A stretch of 64,000 bases of DNA from Deltaproteobacteria bacterium. GTDB lineage: Bacteria; Myxococcota; Myxococcia; Myxococcales; SZAS-1. Positions 24,666 to 42,068 of this stretch are shown piece after piece. Each line of letters starts with the position of its first letter. Position 1 is the first letter of the stretch. The stretch covers positions 1-64,000 of the forward strand of contig JAFEBB010000011.1 in NCBI GenBank assembly GCA_018266075.1. The letters run 5' to 3'. The notes beneath the pieces were generated by a model. It searched no databases and was not told where the DNA came from. It saw only the letters and a list, made by a program, of their open reading frames with translations. The position numbers were made by a program, and so were the translations under genes.

Positions 24666-25145
24666 ATGAATCCGCAGTTGGTGATGTACGAAGAGGAGTA
24701 CAACCAGATCAACGCGATCTGCGAGCGCCTCACGCGCGACGCGAACGCGAAGGTCGTGTTCCTCGTCGACAAGAACGGCCAGCTCATCAGCGCCCAGGGC
24801 GCCACCGCCGACATCGACACCACCAGCCTCGCCTCCCTCACGGCCGGCAACGTGGCGGCCATGGGCGGCTTGGCCAAGCTCATCGGCGAGAACGAGTTCC
24901 CCAACCAGTTCCACGAAGGCAGCCGCGACTCGCTGCACATGACCATCGTGGGCAGCCGGGTGGTGCTGGTGGTCATCTTCGACACCAAGGCCACCCCGCT
25001 GGGCCTGGTTCGGTTGCGCGTGAAGAAGGCCACGGACGAGCTCAACAAGATCTTCGAAGGACTGCTCAAGAAGACCGAGCAGCCCGGCGCAGGCTCTCCG
25101 TTCGCCGAGATCACCGACGACGACATCGACAATCTCTTCAGCTAA
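24666..25145 (+). CDS. mglB: MglB, roadblock-domain GTPase-activating protein
   Basis: 159 residues, a roadblock/LC7 protein. In Myxococcus it is the GAP for MglA and is concentrated at the lagging pole, fixing front-rear polarity. The sequence is close to the known family: [75 protein letters not shown], and the acidic tail [18 protein letters not shown]. It lies 25 bp upstream of mglA, and AAGGAGA precedes its ATG. Confidence 0.97.
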
Positions 25146-25170
25146 CGCCCTTCGCCCGAGACCCCTAGCG

Positions 25171-25761
25171 ATGAGCTTCATCAACTACTCGTCCCGCGAA
25201 ATCAACTGCAAGATCGTCTATTACGGCCCGGGCTTGTGCGGGAAGACGACCAACTTGCAGTACGTGTACGCAAAGACCGCCGCGGATGCGAAGGGGAAGA
25301 TGATCTCCCTCGCCACCGAGACCGAGCGCACACTCTTCTTCGACTTCCTCCCGCTCTCGCTCGGCGAGATCCGCGGCTTCAAGACCCGCTTCCACCTGTA
25401 CACGGTGCCCGGGCAGGTCTTCTACGACGCCAGCCGCAAGCTCATCTTGAAGGGCGTCGACGGCGTGGTCTTCGTGGCCGACAGCCAGATCGAGCGCATG
25501 GACGCGAACCTCGAGTCCATGGAGAACCTCAAGGTCAACCTCGCCGAGCAGGGCTTCCAGCTCGAGAAGCTGCCCTTCGTGATTCAGTACAACAAGCGCG
25601 ACCTGCCAAACGCCGCCTCGAAGGAGGAGCTGCACAACCTCCTCAACCCGCGAAACGTGGCCGAGTTCGAGGCGGTGGCTCCCACGGGCGTCGGGGTGTT
25701 CGACACACTCAAGATGGCAGCCAAGCTCGTGCTCACCGAGCTGCGCAAAGATCCGCGGTAA
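25171..25761 (+). CDS. mglA: MglA, Ras-like polarity GTPase
   Basis: 196 residues, a small cytoplasmic GTPase. In Myxococcus, the GTP form marks the leading pole and activates both type IV pili and the gliding complexes. Visible motifs are the P-loop GPGLCGKTT (about 19-27), the switch region [15 protein letters not shown], the modified G3 VPGQ in [14 protein letters not shown], and the G4 NKRD. VPGQ instead of DxxG is the family hallmark. Immediately downstream lie an intrinsic-terminator-like hairpin and a new promoter leading into the Glt-like genes, so polarity switch and motor-complex genes are neighbours here. Confidence 0.97.
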
Positions 25762-26694: not shown

Positions 26695-29025
26695 ATGTCC
26701 CGCCTCTCGCGTCGCTCCTCCATGCTCGTGGTGGCCGCCGGGCTGGCGCTGGCGCGGCCCGCGATTGCCCAGAGCACCGCTGAGGCGAAGTCGAAGGTCG
26801 ACCTCGTCGAGTTGCAGCTCAAGGAAGCCGAAGAGCGCCTGGGCTTCGTGGAGCAGGAGTACGTCCAGCGCAAGGACGCGACCGACGAGCAGCTCCGCCA
26901 GGAGCGCTTCGCCAAGGGCGCGAGCGCCTTCGCCGACGCGGACTACAACTCGGCGTCGATCCTCTTCTACGACCTGGTCGAGAACCCGGCGTTCAAGAAC
27001 GACCCCAACTACGACGACGCCGTCTACTACCTGGGCGAGTCGCTCTACCAGCAGCAGAACCTCCTCGGCGCGCGGCACTTCTTCCGCGAGCTCTTGAACC
27101 TGCGCCGCAGCCACTACCGCAGCGCCCTCGCCCGCTATCTGGAGATCGCCGGCAAGCTGAACGACTTCGGCGACGTGGCCGGCTACGTCGACGCCGCCCG
27201 CGACGCGCAGGGCAACCTGCCCGCCGAGGTGGGCTACGTCTACGCGAAGTGGCTCTTCAAGCGGCAGGACATTCCCCTCGCGCAGCGCGCGAAGGAGGCC
27301 CAGGCCGTCCTCAAGCCCATCGCCGAAGGCAACGGCGATGACCGCCTCGCCGCCATGTACCTCTATGGCGTGCTCGAGGTGCAGCAGGGCAACTTCGACG
27401 AGGCCACCGAGACGTACACGCACCTCACCCGCATCGGCTCGCGGAACGAGCGCGAGCGGCAGATCGTGGAGCTCGCGCACCTCGCGCTGGGCCGCATCGC
27501 CTACGAGCAGTCGAAGTTCACCGAGGCCATCGACGCGTACCAGGAAGTGGATCGCGACAGCGAGCACTTCACCGAGGCGCTCTATGAAATTGCCTGGGTA
27601 TTCGTGAAGAAGGGCGAGTACGAGAAGGCGCTGCGCTCGACGGAGATCCTCGACGAGCTCGCGCCCGACTCCATCATCGCGCCCGAGGCCAAGGTGCTCC
27701 GCGCGCACCTGTACTTGAAGCTCACCCGCTACGCCGACGCGACTCAAACTTATAAGGACGTCATCAACGCCTACGCGCCCGTGCGCGATGAGGTCGACGC
27801 GCTGCTCAAGCTGCACGACGACCCGGTTAAATATTTTGATGATTTGCTCGCGCAGAACGACAAGGACTTCAACGTCACGTCGCTCCTGCCGCCCGCCGCC
27901 GCCAAGTGGGCCACAACCCAGCAGGACGTCGCCGAGGCCATGCGCGTCTCGGGCGATCTCGGCGCGAGCCGCAAGGGCGTCGACGAGGGCAACGACCTCG
28001 CCCAGCAGATCCTCAAGCAGATCGACGAGAAGGGCGCCAACGCCTTCCCTGTGCTGCAAGAGGGCTTCAGCAAGGCCGAAGCCGTCGACGCCACGCTCAC
28101 CAACGACTCGCAGTTGCTCGTCGACGCGCAGCGGCTCATCGTGGAGTCGAAGGTCGGCGACCTCGCGGTAGAGCTCGAGGCGGCGCGCAAGGAGCGCGAG
28201 GCCCTGGAGCAGAAGTTCAAGACCCTGCCCCAATCCGACCAGGACCTCGCCACCCGCAAGGCCCGCTACCAGAACCGCCTCGATGCGATCGATCACACCG
28301 CCTTCCAGCTCCAGAACCAGATCGAAGCCATGAACGCGGCGCTGGCCTCCATCGAGAAGTGGGTGGTCGACACGCGCGCGGAGCGCACCAACGACCCCGC
28401 AGCCGAGAAGAAGTTCCTCGCCGACGTGAAGGATGTCCGCGGCGAGGTGGCCGATCTCAGCAAGACCGTCGCCGAGGTGCGCCAAGGCATCAAGAACGAG
28501 AAGCTGCGCTCCGGCAACGCCACCGCCGACGACCAGGTTCGCGCCCAGTACCAGCAAGCCCTCGACCGCGAGAAGGCCGTGCTCGCCCAGGCCGCCTCGC
28601 GCCTCGGGCCGGATGACCAGGCGCTCGCGGAACGCATCGCCGGCGTGCAGAAGCGCGTCGAGGGCGACCGCGCCCGCGTGGCCTCCGCCAAGCTCCAGCT
28701 CCAGACGGCCGTCGCCAACAAGGCCGAGAACATCCGTCGCCAGGTCGAGGAGGAGCAGAACAAGCTGCGCGGCTACTCCGGCGAAGTCGACAACGTGGCC
28801 GGCAACGCGCGCAACCTGGTGGGCCGCATCGCCTACGACAGCTTCAAGCGCGTGCGGAAGCAGTTCTACGACATGGTGCTCAAGGCCGACGTGGGCATGG
28901 TCGACGTGGCCTGGACCAAGAAGCAGGACGACACCAACAAGATCCAGGAGCTCAGCAAGAACAAGGACAAGGAGCTGAAGAGCCTGGACGACGAGTTCAA
29001 AGAAGTCTTGAAGGACGTGGACTGA
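26695..29025 (+). CDS. exported TPR / coiled-coil protein upstream of GltD-like
   Basis: 776 residues. The signal peptide lies in MSRLSRRSSMLVVAAGLALA with cleavage near AIAQ. TPR-like helical pairs span about 55-370 (FAKGASAFADADYNSASILF, AVYYLGESLYQQQNLLGARH, LALGRIAYEQSKFTEAIDAY). A long charged coiled coil runs from about 480 to 700 (LEAARKEREALEQKFKTL). The end is Lys/Asp-rich. Its stop and the next ATG share one base (TGATG), which indicates translational coupling to the GltD-like gene. It is not one of the named Glt proteins as far as I can tell, yet its position strongly suggests a periplasmic role in the same machine. Confidence 0.85.
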   Translation: MSRLSRRSSMLVVAAGLALARPAIAQSTAEAKSKVDLVELQLKEAEERLGFVEQEYVQRKDATDEQLRQERFAKGASAFADADYNSASILFYDLVENPAFKNDPNYDDAVYYLGESLYQQQNLLGARHFFRELLNLRRSHYRSALARYLEIAGKLNDFGDVAGYVDAARDAQGNLPAEVGYVYAKWLFKRQDIPLAQRAKEAQAVLKPIAEGNGDDRLAAMYLYGVLEVQQGNFDEATETYTHLTRIGSRNERERQIVELAHLALGRIAYEQSKFTEAIDAYQEVDRDSEHFTEALYEIAWVFVKKGEYEKALRSTEILDELAPDSIIAPEAKVLRAHLYLKLTRYADATQTYKDVINAYAPVRDEVDALLKLHDDPVKYFDDLLAQNDKDFNVTSLLPPAAAKWATTQQDVAEAMRVSGDLGASRKGVDEGNDLAQQILKQIDEKGANAFPVLQEGFSKAEAVDATLTNDSQLLVDAQRLIVESKVGDLAVELEAARKEREALEQKFKTLPQSDQDLATRKARYQNRLDAIDHTAFQLQNQIEAMNAALASIEKWVVDTRAERTNDPAAEKKFLADVKDVRGEVADLSKTVAEVRQGIKNEKLRSGNATADDQVRAQYQQALDREKAVLAQAASRLGPDDQALAERIAGVQKRVEGDRARVASAKLQLQTAVANKAENIRRQVEEEQNKLRGYSGEVDNVAGNARNLVGRIAYDSFKRVRKQFYDMVLKADVGMVDVAWTKKQDDTNKIQELSKNKDKELKSLDDEFKEVLKDVD

Positions 29026-32000
29026 TGCGGGCGCCGCTCACCATCGCGTTGCTGGCGAGCGCGGCCATGGCCGCGAGCGCACTCGCTGCGCCCAAGGGCA
29101 AGAAGGCCGCCGCCAAGCCCGAGGCCTCGCCCGACGGCGGCGCTGCCCTGTCCGCCCCGCCCCCTCAGGCCTGCACGCCCGTGGGCCAGACTTCGGAGAA
29201 GAAGGACGCCACCGTCAAGGACGTCGACAAGTCGGGCCTGGAGCAGTACGGCAAGACGCCCGAGGAGAAGGCCGAGCTCAAGGAGCTCAACGATACGGTT
29301 AAAGAGTACGAGGCCGAGAGTAAAGAGTACCGCAAGGAGATCCAGCTCCTCGTGGAGAAGAAGTACAAGGACAAGCGCGACCTGCTCGGCGCCTCGTACG
29401 AAAAGGCCATCTCCGACCTGGAGGTGGTCCAGCGCCAGGAGCGCCTCGACGCCATCGCCCAGTTCGAGGAGTTCCTCTCCCGCTACCCCGACGAGCCGCG
29501 CTACACGCCCGACGTGATGTACCGCCTCGCCGAGCTCTACTACGAGAAGAGCGAGGACGATCAGCTCGCCGCCGAGAAGCAGTACGAGGCGACCTTGAAG
29601 CTGGTGGAAGAGGGCAAGGTCGCCGCCGCGCCGCCCGAGCCGGTGGCCGACTTCTCCAAGTCCATCGCGCTCTACCAGCAGCTGCTCGCCAGGTTCGCCG
29701 ACTACCGCTACAACGACGGCACCTACTACCTGCTCGGCTACACCGACGAGAAGCAGGGCAAGTTCGAAGAAGCGCTCACCGCGTACCAAACCCTGATTCA
29801 AAAGTACCCGGGCTCGCGCTTCATCCCCCAGGCCTGGATGCGCCAGGGCGAGTACTACTTCGACCAGACCGACGACGCCGCCATCAAGAAGGCCATCGAG
29901 GCCTATTCGAAAGCCATCGCCTTCAAGGACGATCCGCTCTACGACAAGGCACTCTATAAGCTCGGTTGGGCGTACTATAAAGTCGACGACTTCGATCACT
30001 CCGTCGAGACGTTCACCGCGCTCCTCGACTTCTACCAGGCCAAGACCTCGGGCGATGAGCAGCTCGGCGGTGACCTGGTGAACGAAGCGCTCCAGTACAC
30101 CGCGATCTCGTTTGCCGACGAGAAGTGGGGCTCCGTCGACAAGGCCAAGGCCTGGTACGCGAAGGTTGGAACCAAGGCCTACGAGGCCGAGGTCTTCCAC
30201 CGCCTCGGCGACGTGTTCTTCGATCAGACCAAGCAGGACGATGCCATCGCCAGCTACCGCATGTTCCTGAGCCTGGCGCCCTTGTCGAAGGACGCGCCCG
30301 GCGTGCAGGACCGCATCGTCCAGGCGTACGAGCGCAACCGCGACTTCGACCGCGCCTTCGCCGAGCGCGAGCTGCTCATTCAGAACTACGGGCCGAACTC
30401 CAAGTGGGCCGACGCCAACAAGCGCGACCCGGACGTGATTCACGCCGCCACTGCCCTCTCGGAGCGCAGCCTCTACTCGAGCGCGATCTTCCACCACAAG
30501 CAGGCGCTGGCCTACAAGACCGACGGCAAGACCGAGCTCGCGTTCAAGGAGTTCCAGACCGCCGCGCGCGGCTACGGCGCGTACCTCGAGCGCTTCCCGC
30601 ACTCGAAGGAATCGTACGACCTCACGTTCTACTTTGCAGAGTGTCTGTACAACTCCTTCGACTACGAGAAGGCGTCTAAACAGTACGCGGTGGTGCGTGA
30701 CTCCAACGCCGACACCACGCACACCCAGGAAGCCGCCGAAGGCGCCGTCTTCGCCATCCAGCACGAGATCGAGCAGGAGACCAAGTCGGGCAAGCTGCCT
30801 GCGCGGCCGGTCATCCTCTCCGCGCAGCGCAAGGACGGCGAGAAGATCGAGCCGGTGCCGCTCCCGCCCATCGTGCAGTCGTACATCGACGCGATCGACG
30901 GATACTTGAAGATCTTCCCCAAGTGCGACCGCGCCGCCGCCTTCGCGCACAACGCGGGCGTCATCTACTACACCTACAATCAATTCCCCGAGGCGCGCAC
31001 CCGCTTCCAGGGCGTCATTACCAACTACCCCGACAGCATGGTGGCCAAGCTCGCCACCAACCTCATCGTCGAGACGTTCCTCTCGTCGAAGGATTGGAAG
31101 CAGGTCGAGGACACCTCCGGCGCGCTGGCCCAGAACGCGTGCAAGGTCGATCCGACCGGCGAGGCGTGCGTCACCCTCACCAAGTACAAGCTGGCAGGTC
31201 GGTTCAAGCGCGCCGACGAGCTCATGGCCGCCGGCAAGTTCGAGGAAGCCGCTGCCAAGTACATCGAGTTGGTGGACGAGGTGCAGAAAGAGGCCAAGGC
31301 CGGCCACCAGGACGCCATCCGCGACGCCCAGCAGTTCTGCGACAAGGCGCTCAACAACGCCGCCGTGTGCCTCGAGTCGGCCCACCGCTTCGATTCGGCG
31401 CTCACGATCTACGAGCGCCTCTACACCGACTACCCGAAGAGCACGCTCGCCGACTCCGCGCTGTTCCGCGTGGGCGTCGACGCGCAGCAGAGCTACGACT
31501 TCGACAAGGCCATCGAGCGCTACAACAAGCTGATTAGAGACTACCCGACCTCGAAGGATCGCTCGAAGGCGCTCTTCAACGAAGCCCAGCTGCTCGAGGG
31601 CGACCAGCGCTACAAGGAAGCGGCCAAGGCCTTCATCCAGTACGCCGAGACCTTCAGCGAGCAGGACGACGCGCCCGACAACGCCTACCACGCGGCGATC
31701 ATCTACGACCGCATGAAGGACTACAAAGGCGAGATCGCCGCGCTCCAGGAGTTCCAGCGCAAGTTCAACAAGAACACCAAGCAGCAGGAGCACGTGGTCG
31801 AGTCGTACAAGCGCATCGCCGAGGCGTACGAGAAGCTCGGCAACTCCAGCGGCGCGCTCGGCGCGTACAAGCAGTGCGTCGACGAGTACAAGAAGCGCGG
31901 CATGAAGGTGGACCAGGGCATCGCGTCCAACGCCGCCGCCGAGGCCTCGTTCATGCTCGCGGAGAAGGAGTTCGCCACCTTCGACAAGCTGAAGATCACC

Positions 32001-32579
32001 GGCCGCGGCAAGGCGCTCACCAACAGCTTCAAGGCCAAGCAGACGGTGATGAAGAAGGCCGCCGACGCCTACAAGCTCGTCCTGCCCTACAAGCGCGTGG
32101 AGTGGACGCTCGCCGCGTTCTACCGCCTCGGCTTCTTGCTCGAGCGCTTCTCGAATACGGTCGTCGAGGCGCCCATCCCGCCCGAGGTGAAGCGGCTCGG
32201 CGACGAGGCCGTGGCCTCGTACCAGGACCAGCTCGGTCAGATGTCGGCGCAGCTCGATGACAAGGCCGTGGAGGCCTACCAGGCGACCTTGACCGAGGCC
32301 AAGAAGGCCCACGTGCTCAACAACGAGTGGATCAAGAAGACACTCGAAAGTTTGAATCGCTACCGTCCTAAAGAGTATCCGCTGCTGAAGGATCCGAAGA
32401 GCACCCTCAACTTCGATCCGCTCTACCAGCCGATGTGGTCCGACACGCCCGACGGGCCCACGCAGCAGGCCGCGCCCGCGCCGCAGCAGGCGCCCGCTCC
32501 CGCCCCGGCCCCGGTGAACAACGTCTCCACCACGAGCTCCAACCCCACTCCAGGCAAGGTCACCGGCAATGAGAAGTGA
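29025..32579 (+). CDS. gltD: GltD/AgmU-like periplasmic TPR protein
   Basis: 1184 residues with signal peptide (LTIALLASAAMAASALAAPK). At least ten TPR-like pairs are spread over the length (KQGKFEEALTAYQTLIQKYP, YKVDDFDHSVETFTALLDFY, QQSYDFDKAIERYNKLIRDY, KLGNSSGALGAYKQCVDEYK), and the last 40 residues are Pro/Ala-rich. In M. xanthus, GltD (AgmU) is a periplasmic TPR protein of similar size in the gliding complex, encoded next to GltE, GltF and GltG, which is the order found here. The gene overlaps its neighbours by 1 nt and 11 nt. Identity rests on size, signal, repeats and order, not on a sequence search. Confidence 0.8.
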   Translation: MRAPLTIALLASAAMAASALAAPKGKKAAAKPEASPDGGAALSAPPPQACTPVGQTSEKKDATVKDVDKSGLEQYGKTPEEKAELKELNDTVKEYEAESKEYRKEIQLLVEKKYKDKRDLLGASYEKAISDLEVVQRQERLDAIAQFEEFLSRYPDEPRYTPDVMYRLAELYYEKSEDDQLAAEKQYEATLKLVEEGKVAAAPPEPVADFSKSIALYQQLLARFADYRYNDGTYYLLGYTDEKQGKFEEALTAYQTLIQKYPGSRFIPQAWMRQGEYYFDQTDDAAIKKAIEAYSKAIAFKDDPLYDKALYKLGWAYYKVDDFDHSVETFTALLDFYQAKTSGDEQLGGDLVNEALQYTAISFADEKWGSVDKAKAWYAKVGTKAYEAEVFHRLGDVFFDQTKQDDAIASYRMFLSLAPLSKDAPGVQDRIVQAYERNRDFDRAFAERELLIQNYGPNSKWADANKRDPDVIHAATALSERSLYSSAIFHHKQALAYKTDGKTELAFKEFQTAARGYGAYLERFPHSKESYDLTFYFAECLYNSFDYEKASKQYAVVRDSNADTTHTQEAAEGAVFAIQHEIEQETKSGKLPARPVILSAQRKDGEKIEPVPLPPIVQSYIDAIDGYLKIFPKCDRAAAFAHNAGVIYYTYNQFPEARTRFQGVITNYPDSMVAKLATNLIVETFLSSKDWKQVEDTSGALAQNACKVDPTGEACVTLTKYKLAGRFKRADELMAAGKFEEAAAKYIELVDEVQKEAKAGHQDAIRDAQQFCDKALNNAAVCLESAHRFDSALTIYERLYTDYPKSTLADSALFRVGVDAQQSYDFDKAIERYNKLIRDYPTSKDRSKALFNEAQLLEGDQRYKEAAKAFIQYAETFSEQDDAPDNAYHAAIIYDRMKDYKGEIAALQEFQRKFNKNTKQQEHVVESYKRIAEAYEKLGNSSGALGAYKQCVDEYKKRGMKVDQGIASNAAAEASFMLAEKEFATFDKLKITGRGKALTNSFKAKQTVMKKAADAYKLVLPYKRVEWTLAAFYRLGFLLERFSNTVVEAPIPPEVKRLGDEAVASYQDQLGQMSAQLDDKAVEAYQATLTEAKKAHVLNNEWIKKTLESLNRYRPKEYPLLKDPKSTLNFDPLYQPMWSDTPDGPTQQAAPAPQQAPAPAPAPVNNVSTTSSNPTPGKVTGNEK

Positions 32580-34110
32580 CCTCGCCCGAAGCGCCGTGGT
32601 CGTCGCCGCGCTCGCGGGCGCGCTCGCGTGCTCGCACGCCAAGCCTGCGCCGACTGCGGATGCGACCGACGCGGGTGCGTCCGATGCCGCGTCGACGTCG
32701 AGCGCGCCCACGGCCACGCCCGTCGCTGCGACACCGGAGAACGCGGGCAGCAAGCTCGACACCAAGGGCGACGACGCCCAGCCTCCGCCGCCGAAGCCGA
32801 GGCCGGCCGAGCCCGAGAAGGTGGCGGATCCGGCGGTGCGCCAGGCGTTCAGCGCCGCGGCCGCCGCCGAGGCCAGCGGCAACCTCGACGGCGCCGTGGC
32901 CAGCCTCAAGGACGCGCTCAGCCGCGACTTCAAGCTCCCCTGGGCCCACTACGACCTGGGCATCATCTACGAGCGCAAGGGCCAGCTCGCACCTGCGCTC
33001 GACCAGTACCGCAAGGCGCTCGAGGTGAAGCCCGACTTCGGGCCGGCGGCGATGGCCGAGGCGCGGCTCCTCGTGCGCCAGCGCCGCATGAGCGAAGCCG
33101 AAGGCGACCTGCGCGGCCGCGTGAACGCGCATCCGGAAGCGCTCGGGCTGCGCAACGCGCTGGTGTTCACGCTGGTGCAGGAGTCGCAGTACGACCAGGC
33201 CGTGGTCGAGGCCAAGAAGGTACTCAAGGCCGACGAGAAGAACTCGGACGCGATGTTCCAGCTGGCTACTGTCTATTACAAACAAGGCAAGAACGAGCTG
33301 GCGCTGATGGTGCTCACCAACGCCGCCGCGATCCGCCCCGACGATCCCCAGATCCAGAACGCGCTCGGCTTCGTGCACATCGCGCTCAAGGAGCGCGAGA
33401 AGGCCCTCGAAGACTTCCGCAAGGCCGCCTCGCTCTCGCCCGACTTCGCCGAGGCGCACAACAACCTGGGGGCGCTCTACAACGAGGCGCAGGACTATCC
33501 GGCGGCGGTGCGCGAGCTGGAGCTCGCCGTCCGCGACGGGCCCGACTACGCCCCCGCGCACCTGAACCTGGGCAACGCCTACCGCGGCAACCAGCAGTAC
33601 GACCAGGCGCTCGCCGAGTACCAGAAGGTCCTCTCGCTCAAGCCCAACGACAAGGACACCCTCTTCAACCTGGCGGTGCTCTACTTCGACGGCGACTTCT
33701 CGAACATGTCGCTCACGGATCGCCTGGAGAAGGCGAACGGCTACTTCGATCAGTACCGCTCGGCCGGCGGCGACGACCCCAAGGTCGACCAGTACAAGAA
33801 GGACCTGGCCAAGCTCGAGGAGAAGGAGAAGCGCCGCCTCGAGCGCGAGCAGAAGGACAAGCTCCGGAAGGCCCAGAAGGCACAGAAGGACGCCGAGAAG
33901 GCCCAGAAGGACGCCGCGAGCGGCGCCAAGCTCAAGGACGACTCCGGCGGCGGCGCCAAGCTCAAGGACGACAGCGGCAGCACGCCAGCGCCCACGGGCG
34001 GCACCAAGCTCAAGGATACGAAGGCCGACAGCACGGCAAAGCCTTCCGGGAAAGCATCTCCCACCGCGGCCCCGAGTGGCGGTAAGCTCGGCGGCGGAGA
34101 CGACAAGTGA
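32569..34110 (+). CDS. gltE: GltE/AglT-like TPR lipoprotein
   Basis: 513 residues. MRSDLARSAVVVAALAGALA is followed by Cys, a lipoprotein signal. About eight TPRs span residues 85-400 (AHYDLGIIYERKGQLAPALD, AHNNLGALYNEAQDYPAAVR, AHLNLGNAYRGNQQYDQALA). The C-terminus is a Lys/Glu coiled coil with three GTKLKD/GAKLKD repeats. AglT (GltE) of M. xanthus is a TPR lipoprotein needed for gliding, and the gene order supports this match. It starts 11 nt inside the previous gene, and its last codon overlaps the next start (GTGA). Confidence 0.8.
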   Translation: MRSDLARSAVVVAALAGALACSHAKPAPTADATDAGASDAASTSSAPTATPVAATPENAGSKLDTKGDDAQPPPPKPRPAEPEKVADPAVRQAFSAAAAAEASGNLDGAVASLKDALSRDFKLPWAHYDLGIIYERKGQLAPALDQYRKALEVKPDFGPAAMAEARLLVRQRRMSEAEGDLRGRVNAHPEALGLRNALVFTLVQESQYDQAVVEAKKVLKADEKNSDAMFQLATVYYKQGKNELALMVLTNAAAIRPDDPQIQNALGFVHIALKEREKALEDFRKAASLSPDFAEAHNNLGALYNEAQDYPAAVRELELAVRDGPDYAPAHLNLGNAYRGNQQYDQALAEYQKVLSLKPNDKDTLFNLAVLYFDGDFSNMSLTDRLEKANGYFDQYRSAGGDDPKVDQYKKDLAKLEEKEKRRLEREQKDKLRKAQKAQKDAEKAQKDAASGAKLKDDSGGGAKLKDDSGSTPAPTGGTKLKDTKADSTAKPSGKASPTAAPSGGKLGGGDDK

Positions 34111-34352
34111 CCCGCGCCCTCGCCCGCCTCGCCCTCGCGCTCGCGACCTTCGCCGCCGGCCAAGCCTTCGCGGCCGACGTCAAGAAGCCGCACAAGGTCA
34201 TCCGGCTGGACAGCATCACCATCGAGGGCAAGATCCAGAAACCGCAGGCGTTCCTGCTCCTTCAGCGCTCCAACCTGAACTTCGAGGAGCTGGAGCGCAC
34301 GGAGAGCTTCATTCCGAAGGTGATCAAGAGCGTCGACAAGGATCCCTTCTAG
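34107..34352 (+). CDS. small exported protein at the GltF position
   Basis: 81 residues from a GTG overlapping the previous stop by 4 nt. TRALARLALALATFAAGQAF is a signal peptide. The mature part is about 60 residues with VIRLDSITIEGKIQKPQAFL and an amphipathic C-terminus. No domain is recognised. In M. xanthus the gene between gltE and gltG is gltF; location, size and export fit that, but the match is positional. A strong RNA hairpin follows the stop. Confidence 0.65.
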   Translation: MTRALARLALALATFAAGQAFAADVKKPHKVIRLDSITIEGKIQKPQAFLLLQRSNLNFEELERTESFIPKVIKSVDKDPF

Positions 34353-34434: not shown

Positions 34435-35754
34435 ATGGCGGCCAATCCGTTGGGAAAAGTGCTGCGCCTGGGAGTGATCCAGGGCGGCAAGATCATCGAA
34501 GACCGGACCCTCGACAAGCGGGAGAACGTCTCCATCGGCAACGACGGGAAGAACACCGTCGTGGTGCCCATGAGCAACCTCCCCAAGTCGCTGGTGGTCT
34601 TCGAGCTCAAGGGCACGCAGTACTCGCTCTGCTTCACCGAGGACATGGACGGCCGGCTCTCCACCGGCGGCGGCTCCAACGACCAGCTCAGCTTCGCGGC
34701 CCTGAAGAGCCAGGGCCTGGCCAAGAAGCGCGGCGACGTCTACGTGATGCCGCTGACCGAGTCGGCCAAGGGCAAGCTCTCGCTGGGCGAGATCACCCTG
34801 CTCTTCCAGTTCGTAAACCCGCCCAAGGTGCTGCCCAAGATGGAGCTGCCCAAGGCGGCCAAGGGCGGCCTGGTCAACACCGTCGATCGCACGTTCACCG
34901 GCGTGCTGATGTTCTTCCTCTTCATCGAGTTCGCCGGCGCGGGCGCGCTCTCGCGCATGCCGCTGCCGAACGACGACGTGTCGCTCGAGGAGCTGCCCGA
35001 TCGCTTCGTGAAGATGGTGGTGCCGGAGAAGAAGCCCGAGCCGCCCAAGCCTAAAGACGACGGCAAGAAGCCCGAAGAGGCCAAGAAGGACGACACGCCC
35101 AAGGAGAACAAGAAGGAGCCGCCCAAGGACTCCGCGCAGCACAAGGCGGAGGTGGCGCAGAAGGTGGCGAGCAAGGGCCTCTTGAAGGTCCTCGGCGCGC
35201 AGGGCGGCGTGGGCGCGGGCATCGCCGACGTGCTCGGCAACGGCGCGGCAGCCACCGACGTGGCCAGCGCGCTCGCGGGCGCCTCGGGCGTGGCCACGGC
35301 CCAGAGCGACGCGGTGGGCGGCCCCAAGGGCGGCGGCGCAGGGAGCGCGGCTGGCATCGGCGACCTGGGAACCCAGGGCGGCGGCGCGGTCGACACCGGC
35401 CCCAAGAAGGAAGCGCAGATCCGCGGCCGGGTGATGGACTCCGCTCCCGAAGTGGAGTCGAGCGATCTCGACAAGGCCGCGCTCGCGCGCTTCATCAAGG
35501 TGCGCCTCTCGGCCATCCAGGCCTGCTACGAGGCCCAGCTCAAGCGCAACCCGCAGCTCAAGGGCAAGATCGTGGTGCGCTTCACCATCGGCTCCACCGG
35601 CCGCGTGACCGACGTAGAGATCGACGAGAACCAGATGGGCAACGACGAGGTGGCCAGCTGCATCAAGGCCAAGATCCGCGCCTGGACCACGCCCTTCAAG
35701 CCCGACGGCGACGCGACGGTGAGCTATCCGTTCGTGTTCCAGCCGGCGAGCTGA
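34435..35754 (+). CDS. gltG: GltG/PglI-like FHA-type, single-pass, TonB-like protein
   Basis: 439 residues. An N-terminal cytoplasmic region (about 8-130) has the beta-rich character of an FHA-type domain (LRLGVIQGGKIIEDRTLDKR, ENVSIGNDGKNTVVVP). One membrane helix lies at about 154-172. A Lys/Pro/Glu periplasmic spacer (180-230) and a Gly/Ala-rich stretch follow, and the last 100 residues form the AgmX/PglI C-terminal domain, TonB-like, with paired cysteines in IQACYEAQLKRNPQLKG and VASCIKAKIRAW. In the gliding machine, GltG and its paralogue GltJ link the cytoplasm and inner membrane to periplasmic partners. It is separated from the previous gene by 82 bp containing a hairpin. Confidence 0.85.
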   Translation: MAANPLGKVLRLGVIQGGKIIEDRTLDKRENVSIGNDGKNTVVVPMSNLPKSLVVFELKGTQYSLCFTEDMDGRLSTGGGSNDQLSFAALKSQGLAKKRGDVYVMPLTESAKGKLSLGEITLLFQFVNPPKVLPKMELPKAAKGGLVNTVDRTFTGVLMFFLFIEFAGAGALSRMPLPNDDVSLEELPDRFVKMVVPEKKPEPPKPKDDGKKPEEAKKDDTPKENKKEPPKDSAQHKAEVAQKVASKGLLKVLGAQGGVGAGIADVLGNGAAATDVASALAGASGVATAQSDAVGGPKGGGAGSAAGIGDLGTQGGGAVDTGPKKEAQIRGRVMDSAPEVESSDLDKAALARFIKVRLSAIQACYEAQLKRNPQLKGKIVVRFTIGSTGRVTDVEIDENQMGNDEVASCIKAKIRAWTTPFKPDGDATVSYPFVFQPAS

Positions 35755-35775: not shown

Positions 35776-36807
35776 GTGCAGAAGGCGCGGCGCCTGGCTG
35801 AGGTGAAGGACCTCCTGGCGTCGCCCGAATTTCTGGCGTGGTGGGAGAGCCTCACCACCGCGCGCCAGAAGCTGCGCGAGCTCACCGAGCAGTACGACGA
35901 GCTGCTCACCCAGGCCATGCTCATGGACTTCCGCGCGGAGCTCGCGCAGAAGAACGCCATCGACACCCTCTACCGCTCGGGCGAGCACGAGGACGCCGCC
36001 GCGGGGCTGCTGGCGGAGAGCACGGAGCTCGAGAACCAGAGCTTCAAGAGCGTGGGCGAATTCGAGGAGCTGCGCTTCAAGGCCTCGGAGACCTGGTACA
36101 AGCTCGGCGCCGCGGAGCGACAGCTGGAAGAGCAGAAGGAGCAGCTTACGCTCGCCCAGCAGCACCGCGAGAAGCTCCAGGGCAGCGCGCGCCGCGAGGC
36201 CGACGCCCGCTTCAGCCAGCGCGAGCACGAGCTCAAGCTGGCCGAGCGCGCCTTCCGCCAGCTCCAGCAGGAGTACGACCGCGAGAACGGCCGCAAGACG
36301 CGCGTCTGGGACGAGGTGGAGCGCATCTGGGCCAAGAGCGCGGAGATGAGCCTCACCATGGCCGAGAAGAAGATGCAGGCCAAGAAGGTGCGGCGCGAGG
36401 CGGAGACCGGCTTCGCCCAGGCCGAGGAGCGCAAGCAGCGCGCCCAGAAGCTCCGCGCCGAGGCGGACGCCAAGGGCGCCACCCGCGAGCAGGCCAGCCA
36501 GAAGGTGGCCGAGGTGCTGAACCAGGCGCGCGAGAAGTTCTCCTGCGCCATCGGCGACGAGTTCTTGTATTTCAGGGAGCGCGACCAGAGCCAGCGCGCC
36601 TTCGCCGTAAGCCTGGTTGCCGACAGCCAGACGTTCAACATCGAAGTGAAGCCGCTGGCCATCTACAACGTCGACCGCAACCGCGGGGTGAGCTTCCTGG
36701 AGCCGGCGGTGGAGCAGCCGCCCTCGGTCGAAGAGGGCGACCGCCGCTTCGAGGCCTACTTCCTTCAGGGGCGCAAGGGCGAGAAGAAGCCCGCCGCCGC
36801 CGGATAG
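35776..36807 (+). CDS. long coiled-coil protein after gltG-like
   Basis: 343 residues from a GTG with AAGGAG 7 nt upstream. There is no signal peptide or membrane helix, so it should be cytoplasmic. Residues of about 10-260 are nearly continuous heptads rich in Gln, Glu, Arg and Ala (LGAAERQLEEQKEQLTLAQQ, EHELKLAERAFRQLQQEYDR, MAEKKMQAKKVRREAETGFA). The last 80 form a compact globular end (IGDEFLYFRERDQSQRAFAV, NIEVKPLAIYNVDRNRGVSF). It follows the GltG-like gene by 21 bp and precedes the cyclic-nucleotide-binding gene by 12 bp. A scaffold that meets the cytoplasmic FHA-type part of GltG is a reasonable but unproven idea. Confidence 0.8.
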   Translation: MQKARRLAEVKDLLASPEFLAWWESLTTARQKLRELTEQYDELLTQAMLMDFRAELAQKNAIDTLYRSGEHEDAAAGLLAESTELENQSFKSVGEFEELRFKASETWYKLGAAERQLEEQKEQLTLAQQHREKLQGSARREADARFSQREHELKLAERAFRQLQQEYDRENGRKTRVWDEVERIWAKSAEMSLTMAEKKMQAKKVRREAETGFAQAEERKQRAQKLRAEADAKGATREQASQKVAEVLNQAREKFSCAIGDEFLYFRERDQSQRAFAVSLVADSQTFNIEVKPLAIYNVDRNRGVSFLEPAVEQPPSVEEGDRRFEAYFLQGRKGEKKPAAAG

Positions 36808-36819
36808 CCCGGACCCACC

Positions 36820-37266
36820 ATGCAAAAGCTCGAGGTGCTCAGCCGTTCGCCGCTTTTCGAGATGCTCTCCACGCCGGAGCTGGAGTTCGTGGCCGATCTC
36901 TCGCGGCCGCGGCGCTACGCAGCGGGGGAGATCGTCTTCGAGGAGGGCGAGCTGGGTGACTCGCTCTACGTGATCGTCGAGGGCGAGGTGGAGGTCTTGC
37001 GCAAGAACGACTCCGGCGAGCTCAAGGTGCTCACCACCCTGGCCGCGCCCGCGTTCTTCGGCGAGATGTCGCTCATCGATAAGGAGTACCGGTCGGCGAG
37101 CGTCCGGGCCAAGACGGAGGCCGTGTTGCTCCACCTGACGGCCGAGAACCTGGCGTTGTTTCGCAAGCAGTACCGCGACGGGTTCACCTTCCTGGTGATC
37201 AACATTGCCCGGGTCTTGAGCAGCCGGCTTCGCGACGCCAACCAGCGCCTCGCCACGCGCTTGTAG
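36820..37266 (+). CDS. stand-alone cyclic-nucleotide-binding domain protein
   Basis: 148 residues consisting of one cNMP-binding domain without a DNA-binding helix-turn-helix. The beta roll has RYAAGEIVFEEGELGDSLYV, followed by a phosphate-binding cassette around FFGEMSLIDKEYRSASVRA, with Gly-Glu and Arg-x-Ala-Ser in place. It ends in a helical tail (VINIARVLSSRLRDANQRLA). It may sense cAMP, cGMP or another ligand, or act as a pure protein-interaction module. It is the last gene of the eight-gene run after mglA. Such a sensor at the end of a gliding cluster hints at second-messenger input into motility; that is inference. Confidence 0.88.
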   Translation: MQKLEVLSRSPLFEMLSTPELEFVADLSRPRRYAAGEIVFEEGELGDSLYVIVEGEVEVLRKNDSGELKVLTTLAAPAFFGEMSLIDKEYRSASVRAKTEAVLLHLTAENLALFRKQYRDGFTFLVINIARVLSSRLRDANQRLATRL

Positions 37267-37370: not shown

Positions 37371-37400
37371 TTGACACCCTGCGACACGCGCTCCTATAGT
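37371..37400 (+). promoter_or_regulatory. strong sigma70 promoter before the exported protein gene
   Basis: TTGACA (37371-37376) and TATAGT (37395-37400) are 18 nt apart, 44 bp before the GTG start. This is one of the best promoter matches in the window and marks a new transcription unit. Confidence 0.7.
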
Positions 37401-37444: not shown

Positions 37445-38044
37445 GTGCGACGGTTGACTTTTCTCATCTCCAGCCTGGCTTTTCTGGCGCCCGCCTACGG
37501 CCAGGCTCCCGCTTCCGCCCCGGCCTCCACGCCGGCGCCCACCGCCGCACCTTCCGGCGATGAGTCCTTGAAGTTCGAGTCGAACGAGAAGCTCTCCGAC
37601 AAGGACAAGGTCAGCCACAGCGCCGCGATCATCGCCAAGATGCGCGACACGCTGAAGGTGGTGCTCCAGAAGCTCACCGAGGCGCGCGAAGCGAAGGACG
37701 TGGTGCGCCTCAACTGCGTGAATGAAAAGCTCACGCAGATCAAAGGCTTCATCAAAATCGGCGAGCAGGCTGACCTGGGGCTCCAGGAGGCCGTGGCCAA
37801 GACGGACTCGGGCGCCGCCGATCACGAGTTCACCAAGGTGGAGATCGCCGGGCAGCGCGTGGCGCAGCTCCGCGCCGACGCCGAGGCCTGCATCGGCGAG
37901 ATCGCCTGGAACGGCACCGAGGGCCAGACCAAGGTCGACGTGACCGAGCCCGCGGACCTGCCCGTCGCTTCCACGTCGCCCGCTCCGCCGTCGCCGCCCT
38001 CGGTGGTCGTTCCGCCGCCGGCGAGCGCATCCACTCAACCTTGA
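37445..38044 (+). CDS. exported Pro/Ala-tailed protein of unknown function
   Basis: 199 residues from a GTG with GAGGGGA upstream. MRRLTFLISSLAFLAPAYGQ is a signal peptide. A Pro/Ala/Ser linker and a helical core follow (about 45-150), with two conserved-looking Cys (LNCVNEKLTQIKGF and DAEACIGEIAWN) that could form a disulphide. The C-terminal 35 residues are Pro/Ser-rich. No family recognised. It stands 123 bp before the beta-barrel gene and has its own promoter, so it may be co-transcribed with the export pair and act with it in the periplasm; this is inference. Confidence 0.7.
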   Translation: MRRLTFLISSLAFLAPAYGQAPASAPASTPAPTAAPSGDESLKFESNEKLSDKDKVSHSAAIIAKMRDTLKVVLQKLTEAREAKDVVRLNCVNEKLTQIKGFIKIGEQADLGLQEAVAKTDSGAADHEFTKVEIAGQRVAQLRADAEACIGEIAWNGTEGQTKVDVTEPADLPVASTSPAPPSPPSVVVPPPASASTQP

Positions 38045-38166: not shown

Positions 38167-39414
38167 ATGGTCAAGCGACTTGCACTGCTGCTCTGCGGAG
38201 CCCTCGTCCTCGCCGCTGCCCCGCGCGCCGCGCAGGCGGACGAGAACGGCCTGAAGATCGGCGATGGCCGGTTGCATCCCTACTTCGATCTCGAGACCGT
38301 CTACGACACCGCGGCTCAGCTGCAGCTCAACAACGACGGCACCGCCAGCGGCGTCGGCGACTTCATCTTCCACTTCCGCCCGGGCATCAAGCTCGACATC
38401 CCCTCGCCCAACCTGAGCATCAACTTGGGCGCGGCGCTGGAGTACCTCGTCTATGCGGGGCTCAGCACCGGAACCGCGTCGAGCCTCGACCGCTTGCAGA
38501 CCGAGTGCAACCTCGACCTGGGCATCCTGCGCGGCTCGATCGTGAGCTTCGATCTGGGCGATCACCTCACCCGGAGCAACCAGACCACCGACGTGGGCCT
38601 GCCCTTCGGCGCGCTGTCCCTTTACAACGACGCGCGCGCCGCGATCACCATCGCACCCGGGGGCGGCTCGCTCACCATCTCGCCCGGGTACCACTTCATG
38701 GTGGAGGGCTTCTCGGCGCTGGGGAACATCACCAACACCAGCGGCAACTCGGCGGTGCCCAGCGATCTCTCGGCGCTCAACTACATCCAGCATCGCATCA
38801 CGCTGGAGAACCGCTGGCGCTTCCTGCCCAAGACCGCCGTGCTGCTCGACGGCGAGTACAACATCCGCAACTACAACTCCGACGTGGGTACCGCGGGTAC
38901 GGGCAACGTGAATATCAACTACGTAAAGGCCACCACCGGCGTGACCGGCCTGGTGACGCCGCACTTCTCCACCGTGCTCCGCCTGGGCTGGGCCGTGGAT
39001 ACGGCCGCCGGCTCGTTCAACAGCATCATCGGACAGCTCGAGGGCACCTACCTGGCCAATGAGACCTCGCAGGTGCGGCTGGGCTTCCTGCGCAACTTCG
39101 AGCCGGTGTCGTTCCCGTACGTGAGTTACGAGGATGATCGCGGCTACCTGCAGGGCCGCCTGGGCGCCTTCGGGCGGCTCACCGTGAACGCTCAGGTGAT
39201 GGTGGACTACCTCGGCTTCCGCGGCGGGCAGGCGCGAAATGACCTGGTCTTCACTGCGGGCGCCGGCGCCGACTTCGAGGTCACCCGCTGGTTCATCGTC
39301 TCCGCAGGCGACTCGTTCACCACGCGCGCGTCGGACCTCAAGGGCGACCCGATCGACGCGGGACTGAACCTCTCCTCGGACCAGGTCTACCTGAGGCTGA
39401 CGTTCATCTACTGA
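38167..39414 (+). CDS. outer-membrane beta-barrel, partner of OPX protein (EpsX/WzaX type)
   Basis: 415 residues. MVKRLALLLCGALVLAAAPR followed by AAQADE is a signal peptide, which favours this start over the ATG at 38101. The mature protein is strand after strand of alternating residues (LHPYFDLETVYDTAAQLQLN, NLSINLGAALEYLVYAGLS, RITLENRWRFLPKTAVLLDG, TVLRLGWAVD) and ends VYLRLTFIY with the aromatic terminal residue typical of barrels. Together with the next gene it fits the composite OPX/beta-barrel polysaccharide translocon described in myxobacteria, where a large barrel replaces the OPX protein's own outer-membrane pore. No polysaccharide synthesis genes are nearby, so the exported polymer is unknown. 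Confidence 0.78.
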   Translation: MVKRLALLLCGALVLAAAPRAAQADENGLKIGDGRLHPYFDLETVYDTAAQLQLNNDGTASGVGDFIFHFRPGIKLDIPSPNLSINLGAALEYLVYAGLSTGTASSLDRLQTECNLDLGILRGSIVSFDLGDHLTRSNQTTDVGLPFGALSLYNDARAAITIAPGGGSLTISPGYHFMVEGFSALGNITNTSGNSAVPSDLSALNYIQHRITLENRWRFLPKTAVLLDGEYNIRNYNSDVGTAGTGNVNINYVKATTGVTGLVTPHFSTVLRLGWAVDTAAGSFNSIIGQLEGTYLANETSQVRLGFLRNFEPVSFPYVSYEDDRGYLQGRLGAFGRLTVNAQVMVDYLGFRGGQARNDLVFTAGAGADFEVTRWFIVSAGDSFTTRASDLKGDPIDAGLNLSSDQVYLRLTFIY

Positions 39415-39424
39415 GCCTCGCTCC

Positions 39425-40030
39425 ATGAACCTCCGCTTGCTCCTGGCTGCCGCGGCGCTCGCCCTGGCCGCCTGCCGCACCCCCAGCCCCACGCCCGAGG
39501 CCACGCCTCCGCCCACGCTCCCCGACGGCGGCGCGCCCGAGGCCAACGTGCTCGGCCGCGGCGACGTGGTCGAGGTCAAGGTCTTCCAGGAGCCGGACTT
39601 CTCCGGCGTCTACCGGGTGGGCAGCTCTGGCACCATCGACTTCCCGTTCTGCAAGAACCTGCCGGTGGTGGGCCTCACGCCAGAAGAAGTGGGCGCCAAG
39701 CTCACGGTGTGCCTCGCGCCGCGGGTCCTCAAGAACCCGCAGATCACGGTGAGCACGCGCGAGTTCAACTCGAAGAAGATCTTCGTGGTGGGCGAGGTGT
39801 CCAAGCCGGGGACGTTCCCCTACGAGGACAACATGACCGTCATCCAGGCGGTGACGCTCGCCGGCGGCTTTACCAAGGTCGCAGCCAAGAACTCGGTGAC
39901 CGTCACGCGCATGGTGGAAGGCCAGGAGACGCGCATCAAGGTCATGGCCGACGACATCGCCCAGGGCAAGGCGCCCAACATGGCGCTCATCCCCGGCGAC
40001 ATCATCTACGTGCCCGAGAGCTTCTTCTAG
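39425..40030 (+). CDS. short OPX (polysaccharide export, SLBB) lipoprotein
   Basis: 201 residues. MNLRLLLAAAALALAACRT is a lipoprotein signal (lipobox LAAC). A poly-export domain comes first (GRGDVVEVKVFQEPDFSGVY, YRVGSSGTIDFPF, GLTPEEVGAKL), then one SLBB domain (FVVGEVSKPGTFPYEDNMTV, IQAVTLAGGFTKVAAKNSVT) and a Pro-Gly-Asp-Ile-Ile-Tyr-Val ending. Unlike E. coli Wza there is no C-terminal amphipathic helix to cross the outer membrane. That missing part is what the beta-barrel encoded 10 bp upstream is expected to supply. Confidence 0.9.
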   Translation: MNLRLLLAAAALALAACRTPSPTPEATPPPTLPDGGAPEANVLGRGDVVEVKVFQEPDFSGVYRVGSSGTIDFPFCKNLPVVGLTPEEVGAKLTVCLAPRVLKNPQITVSTREFNSKKIFVVGEVSKPGTFPYEDNMTVIQAVTLAGGFTKVAAKNSVTVTRMVEGQETRIKVMADDIAQGKAPNMALIPGDIIYVPESFF

Positions 40031-40048: not shown

Positions 40049-40741
40049 TCAGGTGTTGATGAGCCCCTTGCGGATGCCCTCGGTCACCGCCTCCACGCGG
40101 TTGGTGACCTCGAGCTTCTGGTAGATGTGCTCCAGGTGGGTGCGGATGGTCGCGCGCGACACGTTCAGCATCTGCGCGGCCTCCGCGTTCGACACGCCCT
40201 TCGCGATCAGCTGCAGGATCTCCTGCTCGCGATCGCTGAGCTTTCGCGTCGGGCCTTCGATCGGCTGCGGCGCCGCGGGCGCAGCCGCGTCGGCGGGCTC
40301 GACCTTGAAGTGCTTGAGCAGCCGCCGCGCGAGGTTGGGCTGGATCACCGTGCCGCCGCCTCGAACTTCCTTGATGGCGTCGACGATCTTGTCGGCCGCA
40401 GCGCCCTTGAGCAGGTAGCCCGAGGCACCCGCACGGACGGCGTCGAGCACCTTCTCCTCCTCGTCGAAGATCGTGAAGATCAAGATCTCGATGCCCGGGT
40501 GCTTGGCCTTCACCGCGCGGGTGACGTCGATGCCGCTCATGCGCGGCAGGCCGAGGTCGCAGAGCAGCACGTCGGGCTTGAGCTTCTCCACCTCTTCGAG
40601 CGCTGCCTCACCCGAGAGCGCCGTGCCGACGATTTCGAGATCCGGTGAGGCCTCGAGCAGCTTGAGCTGGCTCTTGAGGATCTTCACCTGGTCTTCGACC
40701 ACCAGCACGCGGACCTTGCTCGCGGGAGTCTGCGCTTCCAT
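40049..40741 (-). CDS. NarL/LuxR-family response regulator
   Basis: 230 residues. The receiver domain (about 8-125) has the phosphorylatable Asp in LLCDLGLPRMSG, the switch region IFTIFDEEEKVLDAV and the conserved Lys in YLLKGAAADKIV. A linker rich in Ala and Pro (140-165) precedes a LuxR-type helix-turn-helix (LSDREQEILQLIAKGVSNAE, ATIRTHLEHIYQKLEVTNR). It should bind DNA when phosphorylated by the kinase encoded 12 bp upstream. It is convergent with the OPX gene, 18 bp apart. Targets unknown. Confidence 0.95.
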   Translation of the reverse strand: MEAQTPASKVRVLVVEDQVKILKSQLKLLEASPDLEIVGTALSGEAALEEVEKLKPDVLLCDLGLPRMSGIDVTRAVKAKHPGIEILIFTIFDEEEKVLDAVRAGASGYLLKGAAADKIVDAIKEVRGGGTVIQPNLARRLLKHFKVEPADAAAPAAPQPIEGPTRKLSDREQEILQLIAKGVSNAEAAQMLNVSRATIRTHLEHIYQKLEVTNRVEAVTEGIRKGLINT

Positions 40742-40753
40742 GACGGCTCCTTC

Positions 40754-42037
40754 TCAGGCGCTCTGCGCAATCGGCTGCGGTGGGTAGGGAATGGCCAGCG
40801 CGACGGTGGTGCCCTGGCCGGGCGCGCTCTCCACGTCGACGCGCCCCAGGATCTTGCCGGCGCGCTCGCGCATGTTGAGCAGGCCGTAGTGGCCCTTGGG
40901 CGTGACCTTGGGATCGAAGCCCTTGCCGTCATCGCGGACGACGAGCAGCACCGAGCCTTCGTCGAAGGTCACGTTCACCGTCACCGCCTTGGCCTCGGCG
41001 TGCTTGGCGGCGTTGGTGAGGCTCTCCTGGAGGATGCGGAAGAGCGTGAGCTGGCCCTCGGCGCCCACGGGCCGCTCGCTGCCGGTCTTGTTGAAGCGGA
41101 CCTCGAGCTTGAAGCGGTCGCCGCAGGTCTTGCAGTAGTCGGCGAGCGACTGCACCAGGTCGAAGTCCTTGCGCATCATCTGCAGGGAGCGGCGCAGCTC
41201 GTCGATGCTCTCTTCGGCGGCGCTCTTGAGCTCCTGCACTTCCTTCTTGAGCTCGGGCTCCTTGGCGAGCTGCTCGATGTACTCGGTCTGGATGATGAGC
41301 GAGCTCAGCGACGCGCCCAGGCCGTCGTGGATCTCGCGGGCGAGGCGGTTGCGCTCGTCGATGACGGCCAGCTCGCGCAGATCCTGGTGGAGCGCGACGA
41401 CTTCACGGTGCGCGTTCTCTTCGCGCTCGTTCAGGTACACGACCACGTACACGACGATGAAGTTCATCGCCGAGTACCAGAGGAGGATCAGCAGCTCCAC
41501 CATCGCCACTTCGCGGTTGCCGAGGATCTGGTCGATGCGCGCCACGAGCGGCAGCGTGAGCAGCGGCGGCACGATCGCCAGCGGGGTGGGGAAGAGCATC
41601 GCGAAGAGCGTGGTGAACAAGAGCTCGGTCGCGAGCAGCGGCGAGTGCAGACCGCCCGACGCCGTCGCCAGGTAGACCATCACCGAGAGGTCGAGGCAGA
41701 GCGTGACGAACGTGGCGACGCGCCCGACGATGGGATGTTCCACCACCACGAAGTTGGCGACGGAGTAGGAGAACATGCCGCCGTAGATCAGCAGGCCCCA
41801 GAGGCCCTCGGCCTGGAACGCGCGCGCCCACGCGGGCACGGCGAGGACGCCCAGGCCCAGCGCGAGGAAGGCGATGCGCGTGTAGAAGAGCGCGCGGGCG
41901 CGGGTGACGAACTTCTCGTGCGCCCAGCGCAGGTTGGGATCGGCCGCGGGGCCGCGGGCGTCGAAGAGCGCCTTGGCCGCGGCGAAGCGGTCGTTGGCGC
42001 CGGGCGTGGCCGTGCCGAGCTGGAGCGAGGGTTCCAC
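40754..42037 (-). CDS. membrane sensor histidine kinase (HisKA_3, NarX/DesK class)
   Basis: 427 residues from a GTG; a longer in-frame reading begins in repeat sequence. Six hydrophobic segments occupy about residues 50-205, with only short loops, so sensing probably occurs inside or close to the membrane. A coiled linker (NEREENAHREVVALHQDLRE) leads to the phosphoacceptor His (about 237) in ERNRLAREIHDGLGASLSSL. The ATPase domain shows ESLTNAAKHAEAKAV, RDDGKGFDP and GHYGLLNMRERAG. It phosphorylates the regulator encoded downstream. A heptamer repeat (CCAGGAACCAGGATCT) lies just upstream of the start. Confidence 0.93.
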   Translation of the reverse strand: MEPSLQLGTATPGANDRFAAAKALFDARGPAADPNLRWAHEKFVTRARALFYTRIAFLALGLGVLAVPAWARAFQAEGLWGLLIYGGMFSYSVANFVVVEHPIVGRVATFVTLCLDLSVMVYLATASGGLHSPLLATELLFTTLFAMLFPTPLAIVPPLLTLPLVARIDQILGNREVAMVELLILLWYSAMNFIVVYVVVYLNEREENAHREVVALHQDLRELAVIDERNRLAREIHDGLGASLSSLIIQTEYIEQLAKEPELKKEVQELKSAAEESIDELRRSLQMMRKDFDLVQSLADYCKTCGDRFKLEVRFNKTGSERPVGAEGQLTLFRILQESLTNAAKHAEAKAVTVNVTFDEGSVLLVVRDDGKGFDPKVTPKGHYGLLNMRERAGKILGRVDVESAPGQGTTVALAIPYPPQPIAQSA

Positions 42038-42049
42038 GGCCAGAGCGTA

Positions 42050-42066
42050 CCAGGAACCAGGATCTG
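42050..42066 (-). repeat. short CCAGGAA heptamer repeat
   Basis: CCAGGAA followed by the variant CCAGGAT on the plus strand, between the histidine kinase start and the preceding gene's stop. Confidence 0.6.
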
Positions 42067-42068
42067 GA

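Follow-up and report, generated by a model that had tools for sequence, protein, structure and literature searches.

A WzpB/WzaB-type OPX/β-barrel gene pair, its conserved upstream gene and a neighbouring Glt-paralog cluster in a myxobacterial genome

The OPX/β-barrel pair and the gene that precedes it

The gene pair studied here lies on the forward strand of the window, i.e. the whole stretch of 64,000 nt that was analysed. The first gene (38167..39414) codes for a protein of 415 aa with a type 1 signal peptide, which its AlphaFold2 model and the conserved gene order designate as a WzpB-type 18-stranded outer-membrane β-barrel. The second (39425..40030), separated from it by 10 bp and on the same strand, codes for a 201-aa WzaB-type OPX lipoprotein of the D1D2 kind. 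Both reading frames display the high-GC bias in third position that is typical of real genes. The original prediction had described two adjacent genes, one for a 415-residue barrel and one for a 201-residue OPX protein, and these coordinates and sizes were confirmed.

The OPX protein gave Pfam matches to Poly_export (3.8e-18) and SLBB (1.5e-13), with one copy of each. OPX proteins of no more than 280 aa, with a PES motif and a single SLBB domain, make up the short D1D2 class, to which this one belongs. It had also been described as a lipoprotein without outer-membrane helix, and this holds: the SLBB_2 match ends at residue 196 and the sequence stops five residues further on, which leaves no C-terminal helix spanning the outer membrane, and the lipobox (LALAAC, with Cys17), recognized by inspection and not by a dedicated predictor, is conserved in alignments. 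Among solved structures, the protein matches chain 9n9a, an entry whose sequence is that of Myxococcus xanthus WzaB, and the D1-D2 region of Wza. D1 and D2 are thus common to E. coli Wza and to the window protein, but Wza has in addition a D3 domain and an α-helical outer-membrane barrel, a role that the 18-stranded barrel protein would take here.

The barrel assignment of the 38167 protein, proposed initially from the sequence, was supported by AlphaFold2, whose model shows 18 long β strands (mean pLDDT 87.7, pTM 0.83). Its comparison with solved structures placed AlgE (5iyu; Z 19.5, rmsd 4.4 over 313 residues) and the 18-stranded porins of OprD type (Z ~18-20, rmsd 4.0-4.6 Å, ~290-315 residues) on a level as best matches. 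Since the Foldseek matches were scattered across many porins, the fold alone is no proof of polysaccharide export. PgaA, whose homology with the barrels of M. xanthus has been reported by others, was not among the 50 matches listed, an absence that excludes nothing. From a rough tally of the charges that face the lumen, no cationic lumen emerged for the window barrel, but the same tally also failed on M. xanthus WzpB, for which a cationic lumen has been reported.

From its domains and predicted fold, the pair is of the composite OPX/β-barrel translocon type, in agreement with the third export type invoked in the original prediction, and would serve polysaccharide export. A family search found no match to Wzz, Wzx or Wzy on the contig of the window, so the flanks are, as had been stated, devoid of flippase and polymerase genes. 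The description of the pair as an orphan was accurate as to the synthesis genes, which are unlinked; it overlooked the gene immediately upstream (37445..38044, forward strand), which accompanies the pair throughout the phylum.

This gene, the counterpart of MXAN_1917 by gene count, codes for a 199-aa protein with a signal peptide, probably periplasmic, which has two conserved cysteines (Cys91 and Cys149) and is predicted to fold as a three-helix bundle with a confident core. It belongs to no Pfam or NCBIfam family, and a fold search of the PDB gave no significant match (best E 0.1). A predicted sigma-70 promoter, TTGACA-18-TATAGT (37371..37400, forward strand), with 11 matches out of 12, is found 44 bp before it; this is the sole such site in 5.9 kb, where 0.2 would be expected. 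In most of the relatives examined, a TTGACA hexamer followed at 16-18 bp by a hexamer of the TANNNT type was similarly present upstream of the orthologous gene. Because of this recurring promoter, the 37445 gene, wzpB and wzaB probably form one operon, of which the 199-aa protein would be the third product.

Orthology to WzpB/WzaB and location of the synthesis genes

Within the order, the window barrel was present in 105 genomes out of 145, normally as a single copy, and the OPX gene directly downstream and the 199-aa gene directly upstream were near-universal among these relatives. The barrel gene precedes the OPX gene in the window, in M. xanthus AM003 and in nearly all relatives; the order is the reverse in the two other pairs of the same genome, termed C18 and C53, and OPX likewise comes before barrel in the published EPS and spore-coat pairs (PMC9603273). 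The AM003 ortholog, with its 23-bp gap and 204-aa OPX, reproduces the figures published for MXAN_1916/MXAN_1915 (PMC9603273, PMC9601211). In a maximum likelihood tree of 32 OPX proteins three groups were obtained: a spore-coat type (with the C18 protein), an EPS type (with the C53 protein) and a WzaB type. The latter clade, separated with a support of 99/98, contains the window OPX together with M. xanthus WzaB and every operon-linked OPX protein. Gene order, OPX clade and synteny identify the pair as the ortholog of M. xanthus WzpB/WzaB (MXAN_1916/MXAN_1915), with which its barrel shares ~36% identity and its OPX 50%. Both loci have in common the gene order, the short D1D2 OPX lipoprotein, the 18-stranded barrel and the location of the synthesis genes elsewhere, as well as their neighbours, namely a cNMP protein, the 199-aa protein, the G4 cluster of Glt paralogs and mglBA. 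They differ on the two sides of the pair: the window has an extra coiled-coil gene upstream, and a two-component system in place of an inositol monophosphatase (IMPase) gene downstream. This convergent system (a LuxR-type regulator and a histidine kinase) occupies positions 40049-42151; the IMPase gene, which follows the OPX gene in most Myxococcaceae, is found here at 49317-50123. EpsY/EpsX, the translocon of M. xanthus EPS (PMC9601211), is of the same type but belongs to another clade, has the opposite gene order and is embedded among synthesis genes; the C53 pair is this genome's own pair of EPS type.

The M. xanthus pair has a published history. Islam et al. (2020) described mxan_1915 as ‘orphan-like’, lying 1.016 Mb away from the cluster for biosurfactant polysaccharide (BPS), and reported that a wzaB mutant phenocopies the other BPS mutants (PMC7310880); Perez-Burgos et al. 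(2020) likewise paired MXAN_1915/1916 with MXAN_1025-1052 (PMC7484181), and two papers of 2022 defined the composite translocon (PMC9601211, PMC9603273). A need for WzpB itself in BPS synthesis is still to be demonstrated (PMC9601211). The 2022 survey retained an OPX gene only if a polysaccharide gene lay at most five genes away (PMC9601211), a filter that both the window pair and M. xanthus WzaB/WzpB would fail; this was a criterion for searching, not a definition of the translocon. The pair is thus very probably known already, in kind as well as in assignment. Since an orphan pair whose polymer is made elsewhere had been published before, the original prediction was a correct rediscovery and not the recognition of a new type.

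That the polymer is made elsewhere was upheld by the content of the genome. It has three OPX genes, and each of the two outside the window is accompanied by a barrel and by synthesis genes of its own. The C53 cluster is complete, and EpsY and EpsX are the best matches of its OPX and barrel; on C18, genes for PGT, kinase, Wzc, barrel and OPX are present. A full-length WzcB (731 aa, with a fused tyrosine-kinase domain) stands alone on C23, and C78 encodes a TPR-tailed polymerase of the WzyB type in the vicinity of a UDP-sugar dehydrogenase; compared with the corresponding proteins from the BPS region of genome G104, the polymerase shows 32% identity and the dehydrogenase 77.6%. The genome therefore contains both a PCP-2A WzcB and a WzyB. 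There are several Wzx-type genes, none of which could be assigned as WzxB. In G104 the WzcB relative is at 1.26 Mb and the barrel at 2.32 Mb, a separation like that of M. xanthus. Across the order, presence of the barrel and of full-length WzcB agreed in 130 of 145 genomes (93 with both and 37 with neither, uncorrected for kinship), and this was also the case within two families that mostly have neither. Twelve genomes had only the barrel and three only WzcB; in one of the latter (G008) the contig stops just after the 199-aa gene, so that incomplete assembly may explain the absence of a barrel there.

The search for Wzx and Wzy genes without a cognate OPX, recommended at the outset, led to C78 and also to C38. 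On C38 (L102:13567-19935 and L103:1550-2995) there are a Wzx, two Wzy-type proteins and a Wzz-like protein of 238 aa, and no OPX; this is possibly an O-antigen locus, a type that requires none. As a candidate for the cognate locus it was set aside, because no resemblance to the G104 BPS region was found and C78 provides the better WzyB match.

The Glt-paralog neighbourhood and its conservation in the phylum

The genes upstream of the operon, all on the forward strand, form a block headed by mglB and mglA (24666..25761; Robl_LC7 and Arf domains), the polarity GTPase module, which is 82-84% identical in G104. The next members are TPR proteins resembling GltC (26695..29025; gliding_GltC, 86.2 bits for a cut-off of 450) and GltD (29025..32579; assigned by its TPR and by synteny) and a TPR lipoprotein resembling GltE (32569..34110; gliding_GltE, 102.9 bits for a cut-off of 225). 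They are followed by a small exported GltF-like protein (34107..34352; 81 aa, assigned by position and synteny) and a GltG-like protein (34435..35754; gliding_GltG, 171.7 bits for a cut-off of 650). A conserved coiled-coil protein of 343 aa (35776..36807), which is not beside the pair in Myxococcus, and a 148-aa protein with a cyclic-nucleotide-binding domain (36820..37266), conserved between the GltG-like gene and the translocon operon, complete the block. The GltC, GltE and GltG homologs all scored below the NCBIfam cut-offs that define gliding equivalogs. The GltD homolog occupies the position of MXAN_1922, seven genes from MXAN_1915, and in G104 it is likewise the seventh gene from wzaB. 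MXAN_1922 was identified by Luciano et al. as the G4 homolog of gltD, and its mutant moves normally (PMC3169522). On this gene count, and from their sequences, the neighbours of the pair are Glt paralogs of the G4 cluster and not the gliding machine. The proximity to gliding genes on which the original prediction had drawn is real as regards Glt-type genes, and ancient, but the genes concerned are mglBA and G4. The comparison with Agl-Glt and Agl-Nfs (PMC3169522, PMC3858216) is to be read in the same way: homologs of GltC, D, E, F and G are in the window block, but as G4 paralogs and not as motility genes, and the AglRQS-type motor found in the block of other lineages is missing from that of this genome.

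The nearest AglR homolog of this genome is on C40 (L222:9959-12484), accompanied by three ExbD-type genes and away from any Glt gene; being 53% identical to the AglR of the conserved-block motor in L196, it likely belongs to the Agl motor of the organism. An ExbB-ExbD-ExbD-TonB set was also noticed on C23 (L039:9776-12318), 2.5 kb from the lone WzcB. It was rejected as the missing motor, its ExbB being only 24-25% identical to the block AglR, as against 53% for the C40 gene.

The conservation of this arrangement was examined by searching 195 genomes of the phylum with the 199-aa protein as an anchor; 40 regions were taken, 38 of them from outside the order. A detectable barrel stood beside the 199-aa gene in 19 regions, 13 of which also had the OPX. 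In one family the 199-aa gene, the barrel and the OPX were together in all nine regions; there, where the flank was long enough, GltF/GltG, coiled-coil and cNMP genes came before the trio, with an AglR-ExbD-ExbD motor between GltF and GltG. Pathway genes were adjacent in some deep lineages. In L191 the series is GltG-P37-WzpB-WzaB-WzcB (P37 being the 199-aa protein), with WzcB right behind the OPX, and L080 has the same series with one extra gene between. L196 starts with the motor, GltG, coiled-coil, cNMP, an FG-GAP protein, the 199-aa gene, barrel and OPX, and continues with WzyB, WzcB, a glycosyltransferase, an aminotransferase and a NusG-like gene. L195 has, after the barrel, a glycosyltransferase, an initiating transferase of the GT4 type resembling that of the BPS region in G104, and a Wzy with a TPR tail. 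Of two records labelled Pseudomonadota, L091 has the order GltC-G, 199-aa gene, barrel and OPX, and L092 only the end of it. The block is thus kept across many families, and in these Pseudomonadota-labelled records, at protein identities of ~20-40%, and its order survives the insertion of a gene of 4-6 kb. As a control, no Glt genes were found at the two other OPX loci of the genome.

A few variations were observed. In several families a very large exported FG-GAP β-propeller protein (~1,270-1,900 aa), absent from the window and from Myxococcus, is encoded after the cNMP or GltG-like gene and ahead of the 199-aa gene (L135:12117-17828, L177:6023-9844, L180:6004-9864, L141:12260-16927 and L196:5777-9619). 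Among distant relatives, L085 and L087 have the 199-aa gene, the barrel and the whole Glt core; L078, L081 and L082 have the 199-aa gene and the barrel, and no Glt genes; in these five, no OPX was detected downstream. Genomes G143 and G038 retain the pair (in G038 together with P37) and have no G4 nearby.

Possible roles of the translocon and of its neighbours

The exporter is of a known type, and the pair taken alone is ordinary; most of the interest would reside in the conserved third gene and in the link with a Glt-type machine, which appears to be ancient across the phylum. Our literature search, which covered the running text of open papers, found no publication on a link between wzaB/wzpB and G4, nor any earlier description of the conserved third gene with its Glt-type connection. 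The conserved neighbourhood suggests a testable function for the G4 cluster, which the literature searched has left unexplained since 2011, and would support the idea that an ancestral Agl-Glt core had a link with polysaccharide export that predates its use in gliding.

With a high degree of confidence, we consider the pair to be the outer-membrane translocon of a BPS-type Wzx/Wzy-dependent pathway, its cargo being deduced from the orthology with WzpB/WzaB. BPS itself is a polymer rich in ManNAcA. WzyB would polymerise the chain at the inner membrane, and WzcB would hand it to the OPX lipoprotein, which in all likelihood assembles into a ring in the periplasm beneath the barrel; the polymer would then leave through the 18-stranded barrel. 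In M. xanthus, WzaB is required for BPS secretion (PMC7310880), and the sibling proteins EpsY and EpsX interact. According to Saidi et al., ~100 Å of periplasm are spanned neither by the OPX nor by the PCP (PMC9603273), which makes a partner protein worth seeking; the 199-aa periplasmic protein, probably a third component of this BPS-type translocon, may assist its assembly or bridge it.

The original prediction favoured slime or adhesion polymers as cargo. The pair does lie 12 kb from mglBA and beside GltC-G homologs; the Glt and Nfs complexes have been proposed by Wartel et al. to move slime and spore coat (PMC3858216), and our literature search found no named secretion route for slime. Nevertheless, the export of slime or of another gliding adhesin, in concert with the Glt machinery, appears highly improbable, and was abandoned as the leading interpretation: the OPX falls in the BPS clade, wzaB mutants phenocopy BPS-synthesis mutants (PMC7310880), and the neighbours are the G4 paralogs, below the gliding cut-offs, whose gltD-homolog mutant glides normally in M. 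xanthus (PMC3169522). It is also quite unlikely that the translocon is a general outlet for any polymer deprived of its own exporter. The unlinked synthesis genes of this genome would fit such a role, as would the Wzx and Wzy genes of C38, but C38 could equally be an O-antigen locus. Furthermore, WzcB and WzyB are linked to the pair in deep lineages, the barrel tracks WzcB in presence and absence, and the mutant phenotypes of M. xanthus are pathway-specific.

A dedicated BPS translocon leaves the part played by G4 to be considered. Its conserved position suggests that the G4 complex serves BPS-type polymers as Nfs serves the spore coat, by acting on the polymer once exported. A stronger version, in which G4 would be a dedicated, proton-motor-driven BPS machine, the third of Glt type with a polymer of its own, and in which the 199-aa protein would bridge OPX, barrel and Glt-type complex, is put forward tentatively and with more doubt than conviction. 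The competing explanation, to which we give a little less than even credence, bears on G4 only: the linkage would be an inherited gene order devoid of functional meaning. A promoter of its own appears to serve the translocon operon, and this would explain how a polar mutation in MXAN_1922 could leave wzaB active; that mutation has no motility phenotype (PMC3169522), the mglBA and G4 arrangement is common to a whole family, and, gene order being no proof, the genomes that hold the pair without G4 nearby (G143 and G038) count against a G4-BPS link. Mere inheritance, however, accounts less readily for a block that has persisted across many families and into Pseudomonadota-labelled records despite low identity, that has outlasted the insertion of a 4-6 kb gene, that includes motor genes in several lineages, and whose Glt component is specific to this one of the three OPX loci of the genome.
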